From Janthinobacterium saanense (GTDB taxonomy: Bacteria; Pseudomonadota; Gammaproteobacteria; Burkholderiales; Burkholderiaceae_D): a DNA stretch of 64,000 bases. The DNA lies in the NCBI RefSeq assembly GCF_014200675.1, contig NZ_JACHCI010000004.1, forward strand, positions 62,001-126,000, read 5' to 3'. Below the pieces are notes generated by a model. The model did not search any database. It saw only the letters and a list, made by a program, of their open reading frames with translations, and had not been told where the DNA came from. The position numbers and the translations under genes are program-made. The stretch's first letter is position 1; each line of letters starts with the position of its first letter. Positions 41,722-48,982 of this stretch are shown piece after piece.

Positions 41722-41793
41722 ATTTTGGAACTTTTTAAAACACTGGCTGTCTGATCATTTCTGGTCCCATCGGGACAATTAACAGGGGTGGGC

Positions 41794-42663
41794 ATGACGG
41801 ATGGTTTTTCTTATCACGCGGCGTTTGCCCGCAATCTGGGTTGGGTGACGCGGGCGGAGCAAGAGAGTTTGCGCGGCAAGCGGGTGGCCATTGCCGGCGT
41901 GGGCGGCGTGGGCGGCGTGCATCTGCTGACCCTGGCGCGGCTGGGCATAGGCGCGTTTCATATCGCTGATTTCGACACCTTCGATATCGCCAATTTCAAC
42001 CGCCAGGCGGGCGCCATGATGTCGACCCTGGGCCAGCCCAAGGTCGAAGTGATGGCGCGCATGGCGCTCGATATCAATCCCGAACTGCAGATCAGGCAAT
42101 ACCCGAACGGCGTGCATGCAAGCAACCTGGCCGATTTTTTCGACGGGGTCGACCTGTACGTGGACGGCCTCGATTTCTTTGCTTTTCCCGCGCGCCAGGC
42201 CACGTTTGCCATGTGCGCGCAGCTGGGCATCCCGGCCATCACGGCCGCGCCGCTGGGCATGGGCACGGCGGTCCTGAATTTCCTGCCGGGGAGAATGACG
42301 TTCGAGGAATATTTCGGCTGGGGCGATTTGCCGGAAGAAGAAAAAGCCCTGCGTTTCCTGGTCGGGCTGGCCCCGGCTGGCTTGCACGGTCCCTACCTGG
42401 TCGACCCGACCGCCATCAATCTGAAGGAGCGGCGCGGGCCATCGACCATCATGGGTTGCCAGTTGTGCGCGGGCGCGGCGGCCACGGAAGCGCTGAAAAT
42501 CCTGCTGAAGCGCGGCAAGGTGATCGCCGCGCCGCGTGGCCAGCATTTTGACGCCTACCGTAACAAGCTGGTGCATACCTGGCGGCCTGGCGGCAACCGC
42601 CATCCGCTGCAAAGGCTGGCCATGGCCATCATCCGCCGGCGCCGCGCCGCCAAGGGGGCGTGA
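41794..42663 (+). CDS. ThiF/E1-like adenylyltransferase
   Basis: 289 residues from the ATG at 41794 (AGGGGTG upstream; a GTG two codons earlier is possible). Rossmann ATP site GVGGVGG (about 36-42), DFDTFDIANFNRQ with the adenylation Asp and Arg, and a CxxC pair in MGCQLCAG near 230. E1-like enzymes adenylate a C-terminal carboxylate or a tRNA base. No ubiquitin-like partner (ThiS/MoaD) is nearby. Stop overlaps the next start (TGATG), so coupled to the nitroreductase-like gene. Confidence 0.85.
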   Translation: MTDGFSYHAAFARNLGWVTRAEQESLRGKRVAIAGVGGVGGVHLLTLARLGIGAFHIADFDTFDIANFNRQAGAMMSTLGQPKVEVMARMALDINPELQIRQYPNGVHASNLADFFDGVDLYVDGLDFFAFPARQATFAMCAQLGIPAITAAPLGMGTAVLNFLPGRMTFEEYFGWGDLPEEEKALRFLVGLAPAGLHGPYLVDPTAINLKERRGPSTIMGCQLCAGAAATEALKILLKRGKVIAAPRGQHFDAYRNKLVHTWRPGGNRHPLQRLAMAIIRRRRAAKGA

Positions 42664-43772
42664 TGGCTGCCTTTGTTGCGATGGATAGCGTGCTGGAAGA
42701 CATACTCGATCAGGCGCGCTGGGCGCCCAGCGGCGACAACACCCAGCCGTGGCGCTTTGAAGTACGCGGTCCGCGCGAGCTGGTCCTGCATGGACACGAT
42801 ACGCGCACGCACTGTGTCTACGACCTCGATGGCCACCCCAGCCAGCTGTCGCTGGGTGCCTTGCTGGAAAGCATGGCACTGGTGGCCAGCGGCCATGGCT
42901 TGCGCATGCAGGCGCGGCGGCGCGGCGGCATGCCCGATAGCTTGCCGACCTTCGACGTGCGTTTTATGGAGGAAGCGGGCCTGGCTGCCGACCCGCTGAC
43001 GGCGTTTTTGCGCCAGCGCAGCGTGCAGCGCCGACGCCTGAGCACGCGCCGCTTGCGCGCCAGCGAGAAGGTAGCGCTGGCGGCCAGCTTGCCGGCCGGT
43101 TACAGCGTACTGTGGTTTGAAGGCTGGCGGGCCAGATGGGCGTGTGCGCGCCTGATGTTCGACAATGCCCGCTTGCGCCTGAGCATGCCCGAGGCGCACC
43201 GGGTACACCGCGACGTGATCGAATGGGGCGCGCGTTTCAGTGTAGACCGCATCCCCGACCAGGCGCTGGGGGTGGACCCGCTGACGGCCAGGCTGATGCG
43301 CTGGATCATGCAAAGCTGGCGCCGCGTGGACTTTTTCAACACCTGGCTGGGCGGCACCCTGGCGCCACGGCTGCAGATGGATTTGCTGCCCGGCATGTAT
43401 TGCGCCGCCCATTTTGCCTTGCTGGCCGATGCGCCGCCGCGCCATGTCGACGATTACGTGGCGGCCGGCCGCGCCATGCAGCGTTTCTGGCTGACCGCCA
43501 CGCAGCTCGGGCTGCAATTGCAGCCCGAGCTGACACCGCTGATCTTCGCCCGCTATGTGCGCGAACGGCGCGCTTTTTCGCGTACCGATGGCATGCTTGA
43601 AATGGCGCAGGAACTGTCCGCACAAACCCAGGCATTGCTGGGTGGCGCGGCCACTGAACGGGCGGTTTTTCTGGGGCGTATCGGCGCCGGGCCGGCGGCC
43701 CACGCGCGCTCCTTGCGCCGTCCCCTGAAAGACTTGCTGGTGCCGCCTGCGGAAGGGCAGGCCCATGCGTGA
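42663..43772 (+). CDS. Nitroreductase-family protein
   Basis: 369 residues, longer than simple nitroreductases. The N-terminal ARWAPSGDNTQPWRFEV is the family's FMN-binding signature, and the body contains two halves that may form one FMN site intramolecularly. A GTG three bases upstream is an alternative start. It lies between the ThiF-like and acyltransferase genes, overlapping both. Flavin-dependent oxidation or reduction of the product of the ThiF-like enzyme is an inference from context. Confidence 0.75.
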   Translation: MAAFVAMDSVLEDILDQARWAPSGDNTQPWRFEVRGPRELVLHGHDTRTHCVYDLDGHPSQLSLGALLESMALVASGHGLRMQARRRGGMPDSLPTFDVRFMEEAGLAADPLTAFLRQRSVQRRRLSTRRLRASEKVALAASLPAGYSVLWFEGWRARWACARLMFDNARLRLSMPEAHRVHRDVIEWGARFSVDRIPDQALGVDPLTARLMRWIMQSWRRVDFFNTWLGGTLAPRLQMDLLPGMYCAAHFALLADAPPRHVDDYVAAGRAMQRFWLTATQLGLQLQPELTPLIFARYVRERRAFSRTDGMLEMAQELSAQTQALLGGAATERAVFLGRIGAGPAAHARSLRRPLKDLLVPPAEGQAHA

Positions 43773-44463
43773 GATCGCTGCCCGGGAAATCGTGGTCTTC
43801 CTGTGCCTGCTGGCCTTGATCCTCGTATTGGGCATCGTCAGCGCGGCCTGGCTGATTGCTGTTGTACCCCGCCACTATCTGAACGATTTACGCGGCGTGG
43901 CGCTGGCGGTTTCTGCTGTCGTGCTGATCTATCTGTACGCCTTTGCCGTGTACCGGCTATTCCTGTGCCTGTTCCCGCTGCACGAAGGCGCTGCGGCGCC
44001 CGGTTCGCGCGCGGAATTTGCCGCCAACGTCAATATCCTGTTTTACCTGATGCTGTTCAATGCATTGATACGCACGCACTTCTTGCCGCTGCCGCTGTTG
44101 CGCCTGGTCTATCTGGCCCTGGGCGCGCGGCTGGGGCATAACAGCTATAGCGCGGGCGCCTTGCTCGACCCGCCTTTGACCAGCATCGGCAGCAATAGCA
44201 TCGTCGGTCATGACGCGGTGGTGTTTGCGCATGTGATCGAAGGGGAAAGGCTGGAGCTGAAGCGGGTGGTGATCGGCGATGGCGTGACGATAGGCGCGCA
44301 TGCGGTGATCATGGCCGGTACCCGCATCGGCGATGGCGCCATCATTTCAGTGGGGGCTGTGCTGACCAAGGATAGCGTGGTGGGGGCGGGCGAAATCTGG
44401 GGCGGCGTTCCAGCGCGCCTGCTGAAGAGAACAGCCGCCGCAAGTGATGCGGCGGCTTCCTGA
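43765..44463 (+). CDS. Membrane-anchored hexapeptide-repeat acyltransferase
   Basis: 232 residues. Two N-terminal membrane helices (about 8-33 and 45-68) and a third hydrophobic stretch near 90 precede a left-handed beta-helix of hexapeptide repeats (about 120-220; IGSNSIVGHDAVVF, VVIGDGVTIGAHAVI, RIGDGAIISVGAV) ending in GGVPARLL, as in O-acetyltransferases. Overlaps the nitroreductase-like gene by 8 nt. The product of this operon would be acylated at the membrane. Confidence 0.8.
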   Translation: MREIAAREIVVFLCLLALILVLGIVSAAWLIAVVPRHYLNDLRGVALAVSAVVLIYLYAFAVYRLFLCLFPLHEGAAAPGSRAEFAANVNILFYLMLFNALIRTHFLPLPLLRLVYLALGARLGHNSYSAGALLDPPLTSIGSNSIVGHDAVVFAHVIEGERLELKRVVIGDGVTIGAHAVIMAGTRIGDGAIISVGAVLTKDSVVGAGEIWGGVPARLLKRTAAASDAAAS

Positions 44464-44469
44464 GCGAGC

Positions 44470-45456
44470 TCAGATTTTGCGGCGGTTCAGGCATAAGCCC
44501 ATCAGGCCCAGGCCCAGCAAGGCCAGGGTGCCCGGCTCTGCCACCTGCACGGCGCGCGGAAAGATGGTGAGGTCCACGCTGTTGACGGTATTTAAGGTCA
44601 AGGTGTAGTTGCCGGCCACCAGGTTGTTGGTGAGGGCCGTGTACGTCCCGCCGCAAGCGGTGCCGATGCCGGTGCCGGTCGGCGTGCCGCAAGCGAGCGG
44701 GTCATAGGTCAGCAGATTGCCGCTGGTGAGGGTGTTGGCGGAAAAATTCATGTTCAGGTTCGCCGCGTCGGCCAGTTCCGTACCGCCCGTAATGCCGGAA
44801 CCGACGACGCCGTCCGGCGACCAGTTGAAGACGGTTTGGCCCAGCCCGTTGGTAATCGTAAAGCTCACCGACATATTGGCCGTCGAGGATGATCCTGGGC
44901 CGGCCAGTGCATCGAGATAGATCTGCATGAACGGTGCTGCCTGGAAATTGAACAGGATGGTGGCGCCGGGTGCGCCGACCACGAAATTGACGGACAGGCC
45001 TGTGCTCGAGCCATTGCGTCCTGAAGCGTCGGCGCTGCCCGTATCGAATAAAAAGGCTTCGGCGACGTTGACCGTGTGGGTGTTTGTCGATCCCGCTGGA
45101 AACGGTGGAATTTGCGAGCTGACAATCTGCGCATCGCCACGCGAATAAGAGGCGTTGCCCTGGCCCTGCTGCGTGAAATTATTTTGGCCCTTGGTGACGG
45201 CGCCCAGCGCCGACTGAGGGGCATCCACAAAGCCATTACCGCCCCGTATCACGCTACTGCCATTGAGCGTGGCCGTGGAGCGTGAAATGTCGGTGTTGCC
45301 TGCCACGGAGATGACACCGGTGGGATTGCTGATGGTCAGGCCAAAAATATTATTGTAGGAATAGCCGTAGGCGGAGGCTTGCGCGCCGCCGCTGGCGCTT
45401 GCCATGATGAGGCTGCTGAGGGCGATGGGCAGGAAGGCGCGGGAAAGATAGCTCAT
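44470..45456 (-). CDS. PEP-CTERM surface protein, paralogue 1
   Basis: 328 residues from the ATG at 45456 (GAGGAT upstream). Signal peptide to about residue 29, Ser/Thr/Asn/Gly-rich secreted body, and C-terminal VAEPGTLALLGLGLMGLCLNRR, a PEP-CTERM sorting tag (here with AEPG) for exosortase. Similar to the gene at 46591-47571 along the whole length (AYGYSYNNIFGLTISNPTG and ADASGRNGSSTGLSVNF). Driven by a sigma-54-type promoter at 45527-45542. No exosortase in the window. Confidence 0.85.
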   Translation of the reverse strand: MSYLSRAFLPIALSSLIMASASGGAQASAYGYSYNNIFGLTISNPTGVISVAGNTDISRSTATLNGSSVIRGGNGFVDAPQSALGAVTKGQNNFTQQGQGNASYSRGDAQIVSSQIPPFPAGSTNTHTVNVAEAFLFDTGSADASGRNGSSTGLSVNFVVGAPGATILFNFQAAPFMQIYLDALAGPGSSSTANMSVSFTITNGLGQTVFNWSPDGVVGSGITGGTELADAANLNMNFSANTLTSGNLLTYDPLACGTPTGTGIGTACGGTYTALTNNLVAGNYTLTLNTVNSVDLTIFPRAVQVAEPGTLALLGLGLMGLCLNRRKI

Positions 45457-45526
45457 GTGAAATCCTCGTCGAGTAAGTTGCTCAGGTGGCTGTTGCCGCC
45501 GTGGTGGGGGTCTGCCATGCTGAATG

Positions 45527-45574
45527 AGCAATTTTCTTGCCAGAAGATATTTATTCTTTTAAATCAATGATTTA
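45527..45574 (-). promoter_or_regulatory. Sigma-54-type promoter and upstream site of PEP-CTERM paralogue 1
   Basis: Reading the minus strand, TGGCAAG-AAAA-TTGCT (45542-45527) matches the -24/-12 consensus with the required 10 bases between GG and GC. Upstream, TAAATCA-A-TGATTTA (45560-45574) is a perfect palindrome whose near edge is 18 bases from the -24 element, as in the other two copies. Confidence 0.75.
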
Positions 45575-45696
45575 CGAAATGCAAGGCTCCGTTTTCTGGG
45601 GTGCTGACGGTGCGGGTGTAAAGAATGCCGACAAGGCCCCGTTGAAGGCGAGCCCAGGGGAGCGAGGCGTGCGCCTCGTCCCCGTTGCCTGACGTT

Positions 45697-46344
45697 TCAA
45701 GCGGTGATCTTGCGCCCAGTTGAACATGGTGTGACCAGCCGCATCGGTAATGGTGAAAGAAAACACCAGGTTGGCGGTGGAGGAGGAGCCGATGCCGATG
45801 TCGCTGTTCAGGAACACTTGCATGAACGGATGGGCCAGGAAATTGAAGGCCAGGGTGGCGCTGGGCGAACCGACCACGAAGTTGACGGAGAATCCCGTAT
45901 TCGACCCGTTGCGCCCCGATGCGTCAGCCGAGCCGGCGTCAGCGAGGTGGGCCTCCGCCACGTTGACCGCTTGCGTGCTGGCCGCACCCGGTGGAAAAGA
46001 CGGAAACTGGGTACTGACGATTTGCGAATCGCCGCGCGAATAGATGCCGCTCGCTCCCTGTTGCGAGAAATCGTTTTCTCCCTTGGTGACGGTGCCCAGG
46101 GCCGCTTGTGGCGTATCGGAGATGCCGGAACCACCACGGATGACGCTTGCGCCGTTCAGCGTTGCCGTGCCGCGCGAGATGTTGCTGCTGCTGGCGACCG
46201 TGATGGAGCCGGTGGGGTTGGTGATGACCAGGCCAAAGATGTTATCGTAGGAATAGCCGTAGGCGCCTGCCTGGCGCTGCCGACGGCACCCAGCATGGCC
46301 AGTGCAGCTACTGCCGGGAGCAGTTTGAGTTGAGGCAGTTTCAT
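45697..46344 (-). pseudogene. PEP-CTERM paralogue 2, broken
   Basis: Matches paralogue 3 (46591-47571) but carries two lesions. One G is missing near 46274 (CTGGCGCTG here, CTGGGCGCTG there), so the signal peptide starting at 46344 is out of frame with the body. Near 45714 the sequence jumps from the FNW codons directly to the final RKITA codons, a loss of about 345 bp that removes the region holding the rest of the domain and the PEP-CTERM tag. The ancestral stop is at 45697-45699. A long open frame to 45572 is a by-product. Confidence 0.85.
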
Positions 46345-46429
46345 TTGGAATACCTCGCGTGGTTTGCTTGCCGGTTAAAAGAGTCTGAGCCCTGTCCTTG
46401 GGTCGGACAGCTGTCCATACAGTCGCTAA

Positions 46430-46475
46430 AGCGGCTTTCATGCCAGTACTGCCAGTGCCTTATAAATCAGGCACT
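46430..46475 (-). promoter_or_regulatory. Sigma-54-type promoter and upstream site of pseudogene
   Basis: Minus strand: TGGCATG-AAAG-CCGCT (46445-46430) with GG and GC at the right spacing, though the -12 differs from consensus. TAAATCA (46463-46469) again begins 18 bases from the -24, inside AGTGCC/GGCACT arms (46454-46459, 46470-46475). Confidence 0.65.
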
Positions 46476-46590
46476 TGGGTCGGTTTTATTGATTTTCAGC
46501 AGGTATGAAGCGCACGCCTGTAAAGAAAGCCGACGCACAACGAAAAAGAGCGAGGAAATCCTCGCCCATCAATACTCCACAAGCAGGCTC

Positions 46591-47571
46591 TTATGCCGTG
46601 ATTTTGCGGCGGCTGGAATAGCACAGGCCGGCAAGGCCCAGTCCCAGCAAGGCCAGCGTGCCTGGTTCGGGCACCGCTGCTACTTTCACCAGGTCGACGC
46701 TTTCCACGGCGTTCAGGGTCAAGGTGTAGTTGCCGGCTACCAGGGTATTGGTCAGGGCCGCAAAAGTCCCGCCGCAAGCCGTGCCCACGCCTGTCCCCGT
46801 GGGCGTGCCGCAGCCTGTCGGGTCATAGGTAAACAAGGTGCCGCGCGTGAGGAAGTTGGATGACAAATTCGTATTCAGGTTGGCCCCGTCGGCCGTTTCC
46901 GTGCCGCCTGTGATGCCGGAACCAACCACGCCATCCGGCGACCAGTTGAACACGGTGGCGCCCGTCGCATCGGTAATGCTGAAGGTCACTACCAGGTTGG
47001 CCGTGGCCGATGAGCCTGCCCCGACGTCGCTGTTCAGGAATACCTGCATGAAGGGGTTGGCCAGGAAATTGAAGGCCAGGGTAGCGGTGGGCGAGCCGAC
47101 GGTAAAGTTGACGGAAAAGCCCGTGGTCGAACCATTGCGGCCAGATGCATCGGCCGTGCCGGGGCTATCGAGGTGCGCCTCTGCCACGTTGACCGCCTGC
47201 GTGGTCGTCGCCCCTGGTGGGAAAGGCGGGAACTGGGTGCTGACGATTTGTGCATCGCCGCGCGCGAAAGTGCCGTTCGGCCCCTGTTGCGTGAAGTCGT
47301 TCTCGCCCTTGGTGACGGCGCCCAGGGCCGCTTGCGGCGAGTCGAGTATGCCGGAGCCGCCGTTGATGATGCTCGTGCCGTTCAGGGTAGAGGTGCTGCG
47401 CGAGATATTCGTCGTGCTGGCCACCGTGACGATCCCGGTTGGATTGGTGATGGTCAGGCCGAAGATGTTGTCGTAGGAATAGCCGTAGGCGCCTGCCTGG
47501 GCGCTGCCGGCCGCACACAGCATGGCCAGCGCCGCCGCTGCCGGAAGAAGTTTCAGTTGAGACAGTTTCAT
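46591..47571 (-). CDS. PEP-CTERM surface protein, paralogue 3
   Basis: 326 residues from the ATG at 47571 (AGGTAACCC upstream). Signal peptide MKLSQLKLLPAAAALAM cut near SAQA. Secreted body as in paralogue 1 (GAYGYSYDNIFGLTITNPTG, DASGRNGSTTGFSVNF). The tail VPEPGTLALLGLGLAGLC-x-SSRRKITA is a canonical PEP-CTERM tag: the VPEP motif, a hydrophobic helix and basic end. Expected to be cleaved by exosortase and placed on the surface, often in floc or biofilm matrix. Own sigma-54-type promoter. Confidence 0.9.
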   Translation of the reverse strand: MKLSQLKLLPAAAALAMLCAAGSAQAGAYGYSYDNIFGLTITNPTGIVTVASTTNISRSTSTLNGTSIINGGSGILDSPQAALGAVTKGENDFTQQGPNGTFARGDAQIVSTQFPPFPPGATTTQAVNVAEAHLDSPGTADASGRNGSTTGFSVNFTVGSPTATLAFNFLANPFMQVFLNSDVGAGSSATANLVVTFSITDATGATVFNWSPDGVVGSGITGGTETADGANLNTNLSSNFLTRGTLFTYDPTGCGTPTGTGVGTACGGTFAALTNTLVAGNYTLTLNAVESVDLVKVAAVPEPGTLALLGLGLAGLCYSSRRKITA

Positions 47572-47652
47572 TTGGGTTACCTCATTCATCTGCTTGCTGG
47601 TGGAAGGAAGTCTGACCTGAGTCCTGTGCGCAAGTGCGCATGCCGGGTATAA

Positions 47653-47695
47653 AGCGACTTCCATGCCAAGGCTAGTCTTGCCTTGTAAATCAAGG
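47653..47695 (-). promoter_or_regulatory. Sigma-54-type promoter and upstream site of PEP-CTERM paralogue 3
   Basis: Minus strand: TGGCATG-GAAG-TCGCT (47668-47653). TAAATCA (47686-47692) begins 18 bases from the -24 and sits in CCTTG-TAAAT-CAAGG (47681-47695). Confidence 0.7.
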
Positions 47696-47770
47696 ACTTG
47701 AAGGAGGAATATTGATTTTGGGCAGGTATTGTGGGTGGCTCTGTAAGAAAAGCCGACGCGCTGTGACCGC

Positions 47771-48982
47771 CTAGGGCGTCAGCAGTGCTTGCATGCGCTC
47801 TTGCAAGCGTTGCGCGGGGACATACTCGTCGAAGGCCGATGCCAGCTGCCGTGCAGCCTGCTTTGCCCTGGCGCTGTCGAGCAGGCGCGTGGCAGCATGC
47901 CGCAGTTCGGTTTCGCGGTAGCGGTCGGCGCGCAGCAACAGGCCGGCGCCGGCGCTCGTGATGGCGTGCATGTTCAGGAATTGATCGAGATTGCCGGCGA
48001 TGCCGATCACGGGCACGCCCGCCGTCAGCGCTTGCTGGCTGGTGGGGCTGCCGCCGTTGCAGATGACCAGGCTGGCCCGCCGCGCAGCGGCATCGCCGGG
48101 CAGGAATGGCGCCACGAAAGCATTCGGCGGCACGGTGGCTAACTTGATGGTGCCGGCGGTGGCGGCCAGCACCGTGACAGGCAGTGGTGCCAGCGCGCGC
48201 AGCACGCGCGGCAGCAACTGGCCCTGGCCCGAGCTGCCCAGGGTGACATAGACGATAGGGCGCCCGCTGCCCAGTTCCGGGTGTTGCCACCAGTCAGGTG
48301 CAAGCAGTGGCGGCGCCCAGGTGATGGCGCCCAGGTAGCCATGGCTGGCGGGCATGGCGTGCGGCGGAAACAGTTGCGGAATATCCGCGTACAGGGTCTG
48401 GTCGGCATCCGTGTAGATACGGCGCAGGTCGCTGCCCAGCGAGGGCAGGCCATGGCGGCGGCGCACGCGGTTCAGCGGCACGGCGTGGGAGGCAAAGGCC
48501 AGCGGGCGTATCAGGCGGAACAGGGGATCGGCCAGCCAGATGGGCAGCGCGCTCGTCAATGGCAGAGCGGGCACCGTGTAATGCTGGCGCACATGGGGGC
48601 TCCAATAGGCATTGCTGATGGTGATGTAGGGAATCTGCCGCAGGCGTGCGCTGACCGACAGCGACAGGCGAAAGTCGCCGATCACCAGATCCGGTTGCAC
48701 TTCGTCGAGCAAACGCAGGTCATCGTCCACATAGCTCAGCAAGGTGCTTTCGGTGTAGACAGGCTGGCCTTTTGCCAGGGCGTGCAGGAATTGCGCTGAC
48801 GGGATGCTGGCGATGAACCAGCGCCGCAGGCTGCTGTCTTTAAAACAGAAATCATAGCCAGCGGTACACGCAAAATGCACTTCATACTGGTCTTCCGGCA
48901 GGGCTTGCGCCAGGCTCAATGGGCGGCCAACATGGGCCAAGGTAACGGCCTCGGCGATAAACAGGATTTTTTTACGGGTCAT
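47771..48982 (-). CDS. GT1-family (UGT/MGT-like) glycosyltransferase
   Basis: 403 residues from the ATG at 48982 (MTRKKILFIAEA, GAGAAG upstream). GT-B fold: an acceptor-binding N-terminal half, then VYVTLGSSGQG and the donor-site signature VICNGGSPTSQQALTAGVPV near residue 325-345, as in macrolide/UDP-sugar transferases. No biosynthetic cluster surrounds it, so the acceptor (lipid, secondary metabolite or surface glycan) cannot be predicted. Confidence 0.85.
   Translation of the reverse strand: MTRKKILFIAEAVTLAHVGRPLSLAQALPEDQYEVHFACTAGYDFCFKDSSLRRWFIASIPSAQFLHALAKGQPVYTESTLLSYVDDDLRLLDEVQPDLVIGDFRLSLSVSARLRQIPYITISNAYWSPHVRQHYTVPALPLTSALPIWLADPLFRLIRPLAFASHAVPLNRVRRRHGLPSLGSDLRRIYTDADQTLYADIPQLFPPHAMPASHGYLGAITWAPPLLAPDWWQHPELGSGRPIVYVTLGSSGQGQLLPRVLRALAPLPVTVLAATAGTIKLATVPPNAFVAPFLPGDAAARRASLVICNGGSPTSQQALTAGVPVIGIAGNLDQFLNMHAITSAGAGLLLRADRYRETELRHAATRLLDSARAKQAARQLASAFDEYVPAQRLQERMQALLTP

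Follow-up and report, generated by a model that had tools for sequence, protein, structure and literature searches.

The 64,000-nucleotide stretch of Janthinobacterium saanense DNA analysed here (hereafter referred to as the window) carries on its minus strand two genes for PEP-CTERM proteins of the EDSAP-1 family (genes 1 and 3), with a third paralogue between them (the middle gene). A preliminary description of this DNA had drawn attention to a TGATTTA element located at a fixed distance from a sigma-54 (-24/-12) promoter before all three, and had proposed it as the site of the activator PrsR. The question raised by this locus is which protein would bind which of the conserved upstream elements. 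We consider it highly probable that each of the three is preceded by a three-part, enhancer-dependent promoter, consisting of a PrsR box, a site for integration host factor (IHF) and a sigma-54 element. The TGATTTA sequence looks like part of the IHF (DNA-bending) site rather than a PrsR site.

The fixed composite was confirmed: TGATTTA-N17-TGGCA-N8-GC is found on the minus strand before all three paralogues, starting at positions 47692, 46469 and 45566. The identification of the promoters as sigma-54-type also stood, TGGCA-N8-GC, with its GG and GC correctly spaced for -24/-12, being present in 3/3 genes. The pattern suggested for checking, TGGCA-N6-GC, had the wrong spacing and no match in the genome, N8 being correct. 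TGATTTA occurs six times within the 64 kb, both strands considered, and three of these copies lie at the same offset to a sigma-54 element. The exact composite had four matches in the 6.1 Mb genome, at the three window genes and at one other place (C17:59776). With up to two mismatches, the genome-wide search yielded 63 matches, versus 16 for a reversed-pattern control.

In all three window genes, the TGATTTA sequence forms the right half of an exact match to YAANNNNYTGATW, which is the reverse complement of WATCARNNNNTTR, given as the IHF consensus in PMC3897727. Genes 1 and 3 also match the stricter form YAANNNNTTGATW (quoted in the part of PMC5963220 available to us), whereas the middle gene matches WATCARNNNNTTR only and has a C at the first T of YAANNNNTTGATW. 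The predicted IHF site is located between the box described below and the -24 element, and starts 32 nt before the T of the latter (hereafter, -32). The fourth EDSAP-1 gene of the genome (C1:183181) also has an exact YAANNNNYTGATW site. A genome search for the IHF consensus 15-21 nt from TGGCA gave seven places, versus one in the reversed control: the three window genes, C1:183181, the C17 place and two matches (L063 and L065) that were put aside for want of a GC at -12. The genome contains three genes of the HU/IHF family, one HU-like, one for IHF beta (155 bits; curated cut-off 115) and one for IHF alpha (171 bits; cut-off 111). The variable N4 of the aligned IHF sites was not used as evidence for IHF, because the sites had been chosen by consensus and the argument would be circular.

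The candidate PrsR site lies further upstream. Haft et al. (2006; PMC1569441) described, upstream of PEP-CTERM genes in Proteobacteria, a 17-nt motif 1 that ends in TTTACA, then a spacer averaging 62.8 nt (standard deviation 10.6, range 32-92) and a sigma-54 motif, and predicted that motif 1 is bound by PrsR. A 17-mer fitting motif 1, as judged from the text of that paper without its logo figure, precedes each window gene. Its 3' end reads TTTACA in gene 1 and the middle gene and, one base off, CTTACA in gene 3; its distance of 73-74 nt from the sigma-54 element falls inside the published range. By inspection, the consensus YGTCGGNNTTYTTTACA is an imperfect dyad with half-sites TGTCGG and TGTAAA. 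This 17-mer, and not TGATTTA, is the likely PrsR site.

The presence of PrsK and PrsR, implied by the preliminary description, was borne out: the genome encodes one PrsR over the curated cut-off (727.6 bits versus 502.6) and, adjoining it, PrsK (638.9 bits; cut-off 300), the prsK gene being cut by the end of the locus. Exact TGATTTA-sigma-54 matches were limited to the three window genes and one unrelated gene, whereas the pattern of box plus sigma-54 (GTCG-N4-9-TTACA-N50-80-TGGC-N9-GC) matched at five genomic places. Four of these are the EDSAP-1 genes that score above the family cut-off (all of those in the genome), and the fifth is at C22. There are 25 PEP-CTERM loci in this genome. The three intact PEP-CTERM genes whose tail is of the PEP-x-TLALL/TLLLL type (AEPGTLALL in one of them) all carry the box, IHF site and sigma-54 element. 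The set was found before none of the 22 other loci with the patterns used, which weak or degenerate sites could escape; 19 of these 22 have a PE[PA]-x-x-Y/W-x-M tail. One candidate box among the sites considered (L048, TTTACA 25 nt before a TGGCA-type element) was rejected, as it lacked the TGTCGG half and an IHF match. The coexistence in one genome (L031-L055) of PEP-x-TLALL/TLLLL tails with a box and of mostly PE[PA]-x-x-Y/W-x-M tails suggests two sorting or regulatory routes.

The fourth exact copy of the composite, at C17 (L004), has an IHF-type site at -32 and lies downstream of a gene for a GlrR-like activator (GlrR score 581 bits; curated cut-off 763) and upstream of an OsmY-like gene (47 bits, below the cut-off). 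A TGTC-N10-GACA sequence, which we take to be a GlrR type of site, ends 83 nt before the -24 element of this promoter, and no PrsR box was seen there. Because the TGATTTA element is present with another activator at this place, it would correspond to a shared helper protein rather than to PrsR.

From these elements, we infer the bound proteins, the bending and the activation as follows. PrsR, activated by PrsK, would bind the 17-bp imperfect dyad YGTCGGNNTTYTTTACA 73-74 nt before the -24 element, and IHF, at YAANNNNYTGATW with its start 32 nt before -24, would bend the DNA. Through this bend, PrsR would reach the sigma-54 RNA polymerase waiting at -24/-12 from the correct side of the helix.

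The elements, their conservation and a rule for their spacing were established computationally. A search of 145 genomes of the bacterial family with a query that did not include the IHF site (GTCGGN5-6TTNCA-N50-80-TGGCA-N7-YGC) gave matches in 62 genomes, 148 in total versus 19 for the reversed control (sums of rows). The 148 distinct places (29 loci, 115 stretches and 4 places in the genome of the window) were sorted by a tail rule. A PEP-CTERM-like protein was found within 450 nt in 105 cases, hereafter referred to as the family set, in which L221 (spacing 50) is still counted even though, as judged by eye, it does not encode a PEP-CTERM protein. The other 43 places, the middle window gene among them, had no such tail within 450 nt and were left out; 18 of them have TTACA, many sharing the same architecture. 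Perfect YAANNNNTTGATW sites were found in 44 of the 105 family promoters, versus 0.3 in dinucleotide shuffles, and sites with no more than one mismatch in 70 (5.0 in shuffles). Sixty-four of these 70 sites start at -31/-32, and only 5/105 promoters have a site with up to one mismatch in the opposite orientation. When a single promoter was retained per group of sequences at least 60% alike (n=85), 31 were perfect and 54 had at most one mismatch (0.2 and 4.3 expected).

The distance from box to -24 was distributed discontinuously. In the family set (n=105), it took values of 50-53 (14 promoters), 55 (1), 60-64 (67) and 71-76 nt (23), with none at 56-59, 65-70 or 77-80. The Rayleigh R at 10.5 bp was 0.80 (n=105) or 0.78 (n=85), with best periods of 11.1 and 11.0, and the comparison value was 0.18 for 25 places with neither a PEP-CTERM gene nor TTACA; the phase p values assume independence and overstate the case. 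A class-wide search of 369 genomes with a stricter pattern gave 69 places in 43 genomes, versus one in the reversed control. After removal of two rows from the genome of the window, the spacings of the remaining 67 places were 51-54 (9), 59 (1), 61-65 (36) and 72-77 (21), with an R of 0.71 at 10.5 and of 0.78 at the best period, 11.6. The three-step spacing was kept at 66/67 places.

Wider limits in the family search added further steps. Ten places were found at 80-110 nt (six at 82-85, then 95, 96, 103 and 109; control 0) and five at 20-50 nt (41, 41, 43, 49 and 50; control 2), of which the spacing-50 place (L304) had already been counted in the 50-80 search and two (L306 and L297) are one promoter. 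Four of the six boxes at 82-85 are accompanied by an IHF site (up to one mismatch) at -42, and two have none. For the boxes at 41 and 43 (L305 and L308), the printed sequence has TAAGTATTTGATT starting at -21 and TAAGTCCTTGATT at -22, respectively. Whole helical turns are thus the usual step for the box as well as for the IHF site. The preserved helical position proposed in the preliminary description was supported, and TGATTTA as the activator site was not. We lean towards a rigid three-part complex in which box, IHF site and sigma-54 core shift only by whole helix turns, the approximate positions being 42, 52, 62, 73, 84 and, in two cases, 95 nt for the box, and -21, -31/-32 and -42 for the IHF site; the phasing of the box would be class-wide, and the IHF site strong mainly in the bacterial family. 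A pair of PrsR boxes, located 85 and 41 nt upstream of -24 and separated by 44 bp (about four turns), occurs in one promoter (G106:C1:3465604-3465719). A second box upstream of the first was rejected as a rule (19/105, versus 16.4 in shuffles).

The EDSAP-1 family itself gave 48 matches over the cut-off, G113:C4:7-840 being left out because it begins at a contig end. The 48 upstream rows represent 47 genes, gene 3 being present twice (L081 and g3). Box, IHF-type site (up to one mismatch) and sigma-54 element were present in 36 of the 48 rows, a count favoured by the selection of the sigma-54 element on its best joint score with the other motifs and hence not unbiased alone. The IHF-type site is at -31/-32 in 35 of the 36 and at -43 in the other (L090). 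The best box match in these rows lies at 60-63 or 71-74 nt, or at 85 nt in L090, in some cases with 4-5 mismatches. No convincing sigma-54 element was found in 11/48 rows (L094, L102-L105, L107-L111 and L113); the remaining row, L079, lacks the IHF site and has its box at 29 nt. In six genomes from the same genus, there is a second EDSAP-1 gene in tandem (L102, L103, L104, L105, L107 and L108). Each of the six, as read, has an orphan PrsR-box-like 17-mer shortly upstream of its start codon, and neither a sigma-54 element nor an IHF site was seen in the interval. Window gene 1 is the counterpart of this second tandem gene and has a complete promoter.

These data bear on three other explanations of the arrangement. 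That TGATTTA itself is the PrsR site, promoter-proximal and at a fixed helical position, fits the fixed 17-nt gap in three paralogues and the presence of PrsR in the genome, and in gene 3 TGATTTACA also contains TTTACA. We nevertheless judge this proposal very unlikely: the same element stands at the same offset before the OsmY-like gene beside the GlrR-like activator, a separate 17-mer fits the published motif in 3/3 genes, and the box occurs without a TTGATT element (up to one mismatch) in 35/105 family and 23/29 class-level promoters. The sharing of the arrangement as a functionless relic of recent duplication is scarcely credible. Genes 1 and 3 encode similar proteins, genes 2 (the middle gene) and 3 have much upstream DNA in common, and the middle gene is a remnant with its promoter kept. 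Against this, in an ungapped comparison of gene 1 with genes 2/3, where the box is misaligned by one base, the two 20-nt blocks with the IHF site and the sigma-54 element keep 10-14 of 20 positions, all other blocks keeping 3-6. The same parts precede many other PEP-CTERM genes in addition to the 36/48 EDSAP-1 rows, and these rows and the family surveys largely refute the relic reading.

That the TTGATT element is bound not by IHF but by HU or a different bending protein, or by the alpha C-terminal domain of RNA polymerase (at A/T-rich DNA), is also unlikely, though less so than either of these. It would explain an extra preference, YAAGT..TTGATTT, beyond the IHF consensus, the A/T-rich run towards -24 and the 23/29 class-level promoters without a site within one mismatch. 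Conversely, all nine specified IHF positions are matched in 44/105 promoters where 0.3 are expected, IHF alpha and beta are encoded, and other sigma-54 promoters are known to have IHF sites in this position.

Several observations weigh against the PrsR-IHF-sigma-54 promoter with whole-turn spacing that we favour. One third of the family promoters (35/105) have no site within one mismatch of YAANNNNTTGATW, and two of the four positions left free by the IHF consensus prefer G and T (0.76 and 0.69), after YAA, possibly indicating a protein other than IHF. In the class-level set (29 loci scanned), 2/29 sites were perfect (0.1 expected) and 6/29 were within one mismatch (1.4 expected). Five of these six start at -31 to -34, but the IHF site is weak outside the bacterial family and not universal. 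Since it is weak at class level, the phasing is independent of a consensus IHF site. The looser YAANNNNYTGATW site is present in 5/15 promoters of the 50-55 spacing class, versus 70/90 elsewhere (Fisher p 0.001). The steps are not well followed by L294, where the box is at 109 and the site at -55, by L307, with its box at 49, or by the class-level place at 59. The best period shifts from 11.1 in the family to 11.6 in the class, both larger than the canonical value of 10.5, and its estimate depends on three clusters in the 50-80 nt range. Finally, orthologous and paralogous promoters are not independent.

Each TAAATCA (TGATTTA on the minus strand) had also been reported to sit in an inverted repeat. 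Repeats do touch TAAATCA, with arms of 7 in gene 1 and 5 in gene 3, but their sequence and centre differ in each gene; that of the middle gene (GTGCC...GGCAC) was seen by eye only and runs beyond the stretch tested. Inverted repeats around TGATTTA were rejected as an operator, being present in 25/105 family promoters versus 25.7 in shuffles.

The features of the locus are listed in the table below. The description of three PEP-CTERM paralogues holds for genes 1 and 3, the proteins of which are 69% identical over 307 positions. It does not hold for the middle paralogue, in which the beginning and the remainder are in different frames and the C-terminal third, including the PEP-CTERM end, is missing. 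This decayed paralogue (45572-46343) still keeps the box, IHF-type site and sigma-54 element. Five terminator-like hairpins were found in the region, versus 3.1 in shuffles, so that this evidence is weak by itself, and a sigma-70 promoter scan of 44400-48000 found none (0.9 in shuffles). Beside the PEP-CTERM genes, on the plus strand (41788-44463), lies a series of genes for a ThiF/E1-like adenylyltransferase, an Acg-like FMN-binding oxidoreductase and a hexapeptide-repeat acetyltransferase-like protein, the last two assigned with scores below curated cut-offs.

Table. Predicted features of the EDSAP-1 locus, with positions numbered from the first letter of the window.
Feature	Gene	Position	Strand	Details
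PrsR-box-like 17-mer	gene 3	47742..47758	-	CGTCGGCTTTTCTTACA; 73 nt before -24; fits motif 1
IHF-type site	gene 3	47688..47700	-	CAAGTCCTTGATT; perfect YAANNNNYTGATW; start 32 nt before -24 T
Sigma-54 (-24/-12) element	gene 3	47653..47668	-	TGGCATGGAAGTCGCT; conserved in relatives
EDSAP-1 family PEP-CTERM protein	gene 3	46591..47571	-	NCBIfam NF041538, 3.3e-75; tail VPEPGTLALLGLGLAGL
Terminator-like hairpin and T run	after gene 3	46548..46567	-	hairpin scan
PrsR-box-like 17-mer	middle gene	46519..46535	-	CGTCGGCTTTCTTTACA; 73 nt before -24
IHF-type site	middle gene	46465..46477	-	CAAGTGCCTGATT; perfect YAANNNNYTGATW
Sigma-54 element	middle gene	46430..46445	-	TGGCATGAAAGCCGCT
Paralogue, remnant	middle gene	45572..46343	-	NF041538 match to positions 17-222 of 307 only (18-222 in a second search)
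PrsR-box-like 17-mer	gene 1	45617..45633	-	TGTCGGCATTCTTTACA; 74 nt before -24
IHF-type site	gene 1	45562..45574	-	TAAATCATTGATT; perfect YAANNNNYTGATW
Sigma-54 element	gene 1	45527..45542	-	TGGCAAGAAAATTGCT
EDSAP-1 family PEP-CTERM protein	gene 1	44470..45456	-	NF041538, 3.7e-69; tail AEPGTLALLGLGLMGL

Much of this promoter belongs to known types. The class of promoters with an enhancer, an IHF site and a sigma-54 element, the whole-turn spacing of the Vibrio qrr enhancers and the box plus sigma-54 before PEP-CTERM genes (2006) are already known, and the present findings add a third element and a helical rule to an established type of promoter. The PEP-CTERM box of Haft et al. (PMC1569441) has the same motif 1, spacer, sigma-54 motif, PEP-CTERM gene and PrsR plus PrsK; the part of that paper available to us differs in mentioning neither an IHF site nor helical steps of the spacer, the published standard deviation of which (10.6) would fit a mix of whole-turn classes. 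According to the accessible text of PMC9850573, pepA of Aquincola tertiaricarbonis is RpoN1-dependent, with a mapped start, a -24/-12 element (TGGCAC/CTGCTT) and a noted upstream enhancer sequence; this is also a PEP-CTERM gene with a sigma-54 promoter, in another species and a different gene, and no IHF element is named in that text. IHF binding has been shown, in the portions seen of the respective reports, for two promoters with other activators. In Vibrio hcp/tssD2 (activator VasH; PMC5963220), the IHF site lies 16 bp upstream of the sigma-54 element, in the same orientation as here, where the distance is 18-19 nt and the IHF site is a predicted one. In Desulfovibrio orp (activator DVU2106; PMC3897727), the IHF site lies between the activator site and the sigma-54 element, and is likewise upstream of the latter, the activator differing from PrsR. 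For Vibrio qrr, the available part of PMC4740811 reports 61 enhancers with loop lengths in whole-turn classes about 11 bp apart; the LuxO sites there occur in tandem and the loops measure about 80-120 bp, whereas the promoters studied here have a single PrsR box, mostly at 50-76 nt, plus an IHF site. Neither an IHF site in PEP-CTERM promoters nor quantised PrsR-box spacing was found in the literature searched, outside which most subscription papers fall.

The analysis provides an exact candidate PrsR site, set apart from the predicted IHF site; in the papers found, the place where PrsR binds is only predicted. It also predicts that 5-bp shifts would kill promoter activity, and that shifts of 10 or 11 bp would spare it. 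Together with Vibrio qrr, these promoters offer a natural example, in many species, of helical phasing in sigma-54 enhancers. In the genome of the window, the elements mark a predicted PrsR sub-regulon comprising the 3/3 intact PEP-x-TLALL/TLLLL-type genes, and PEP-CTERM proteins matter, according to the available part of PMC9850573, for floc formation in some bacteria.

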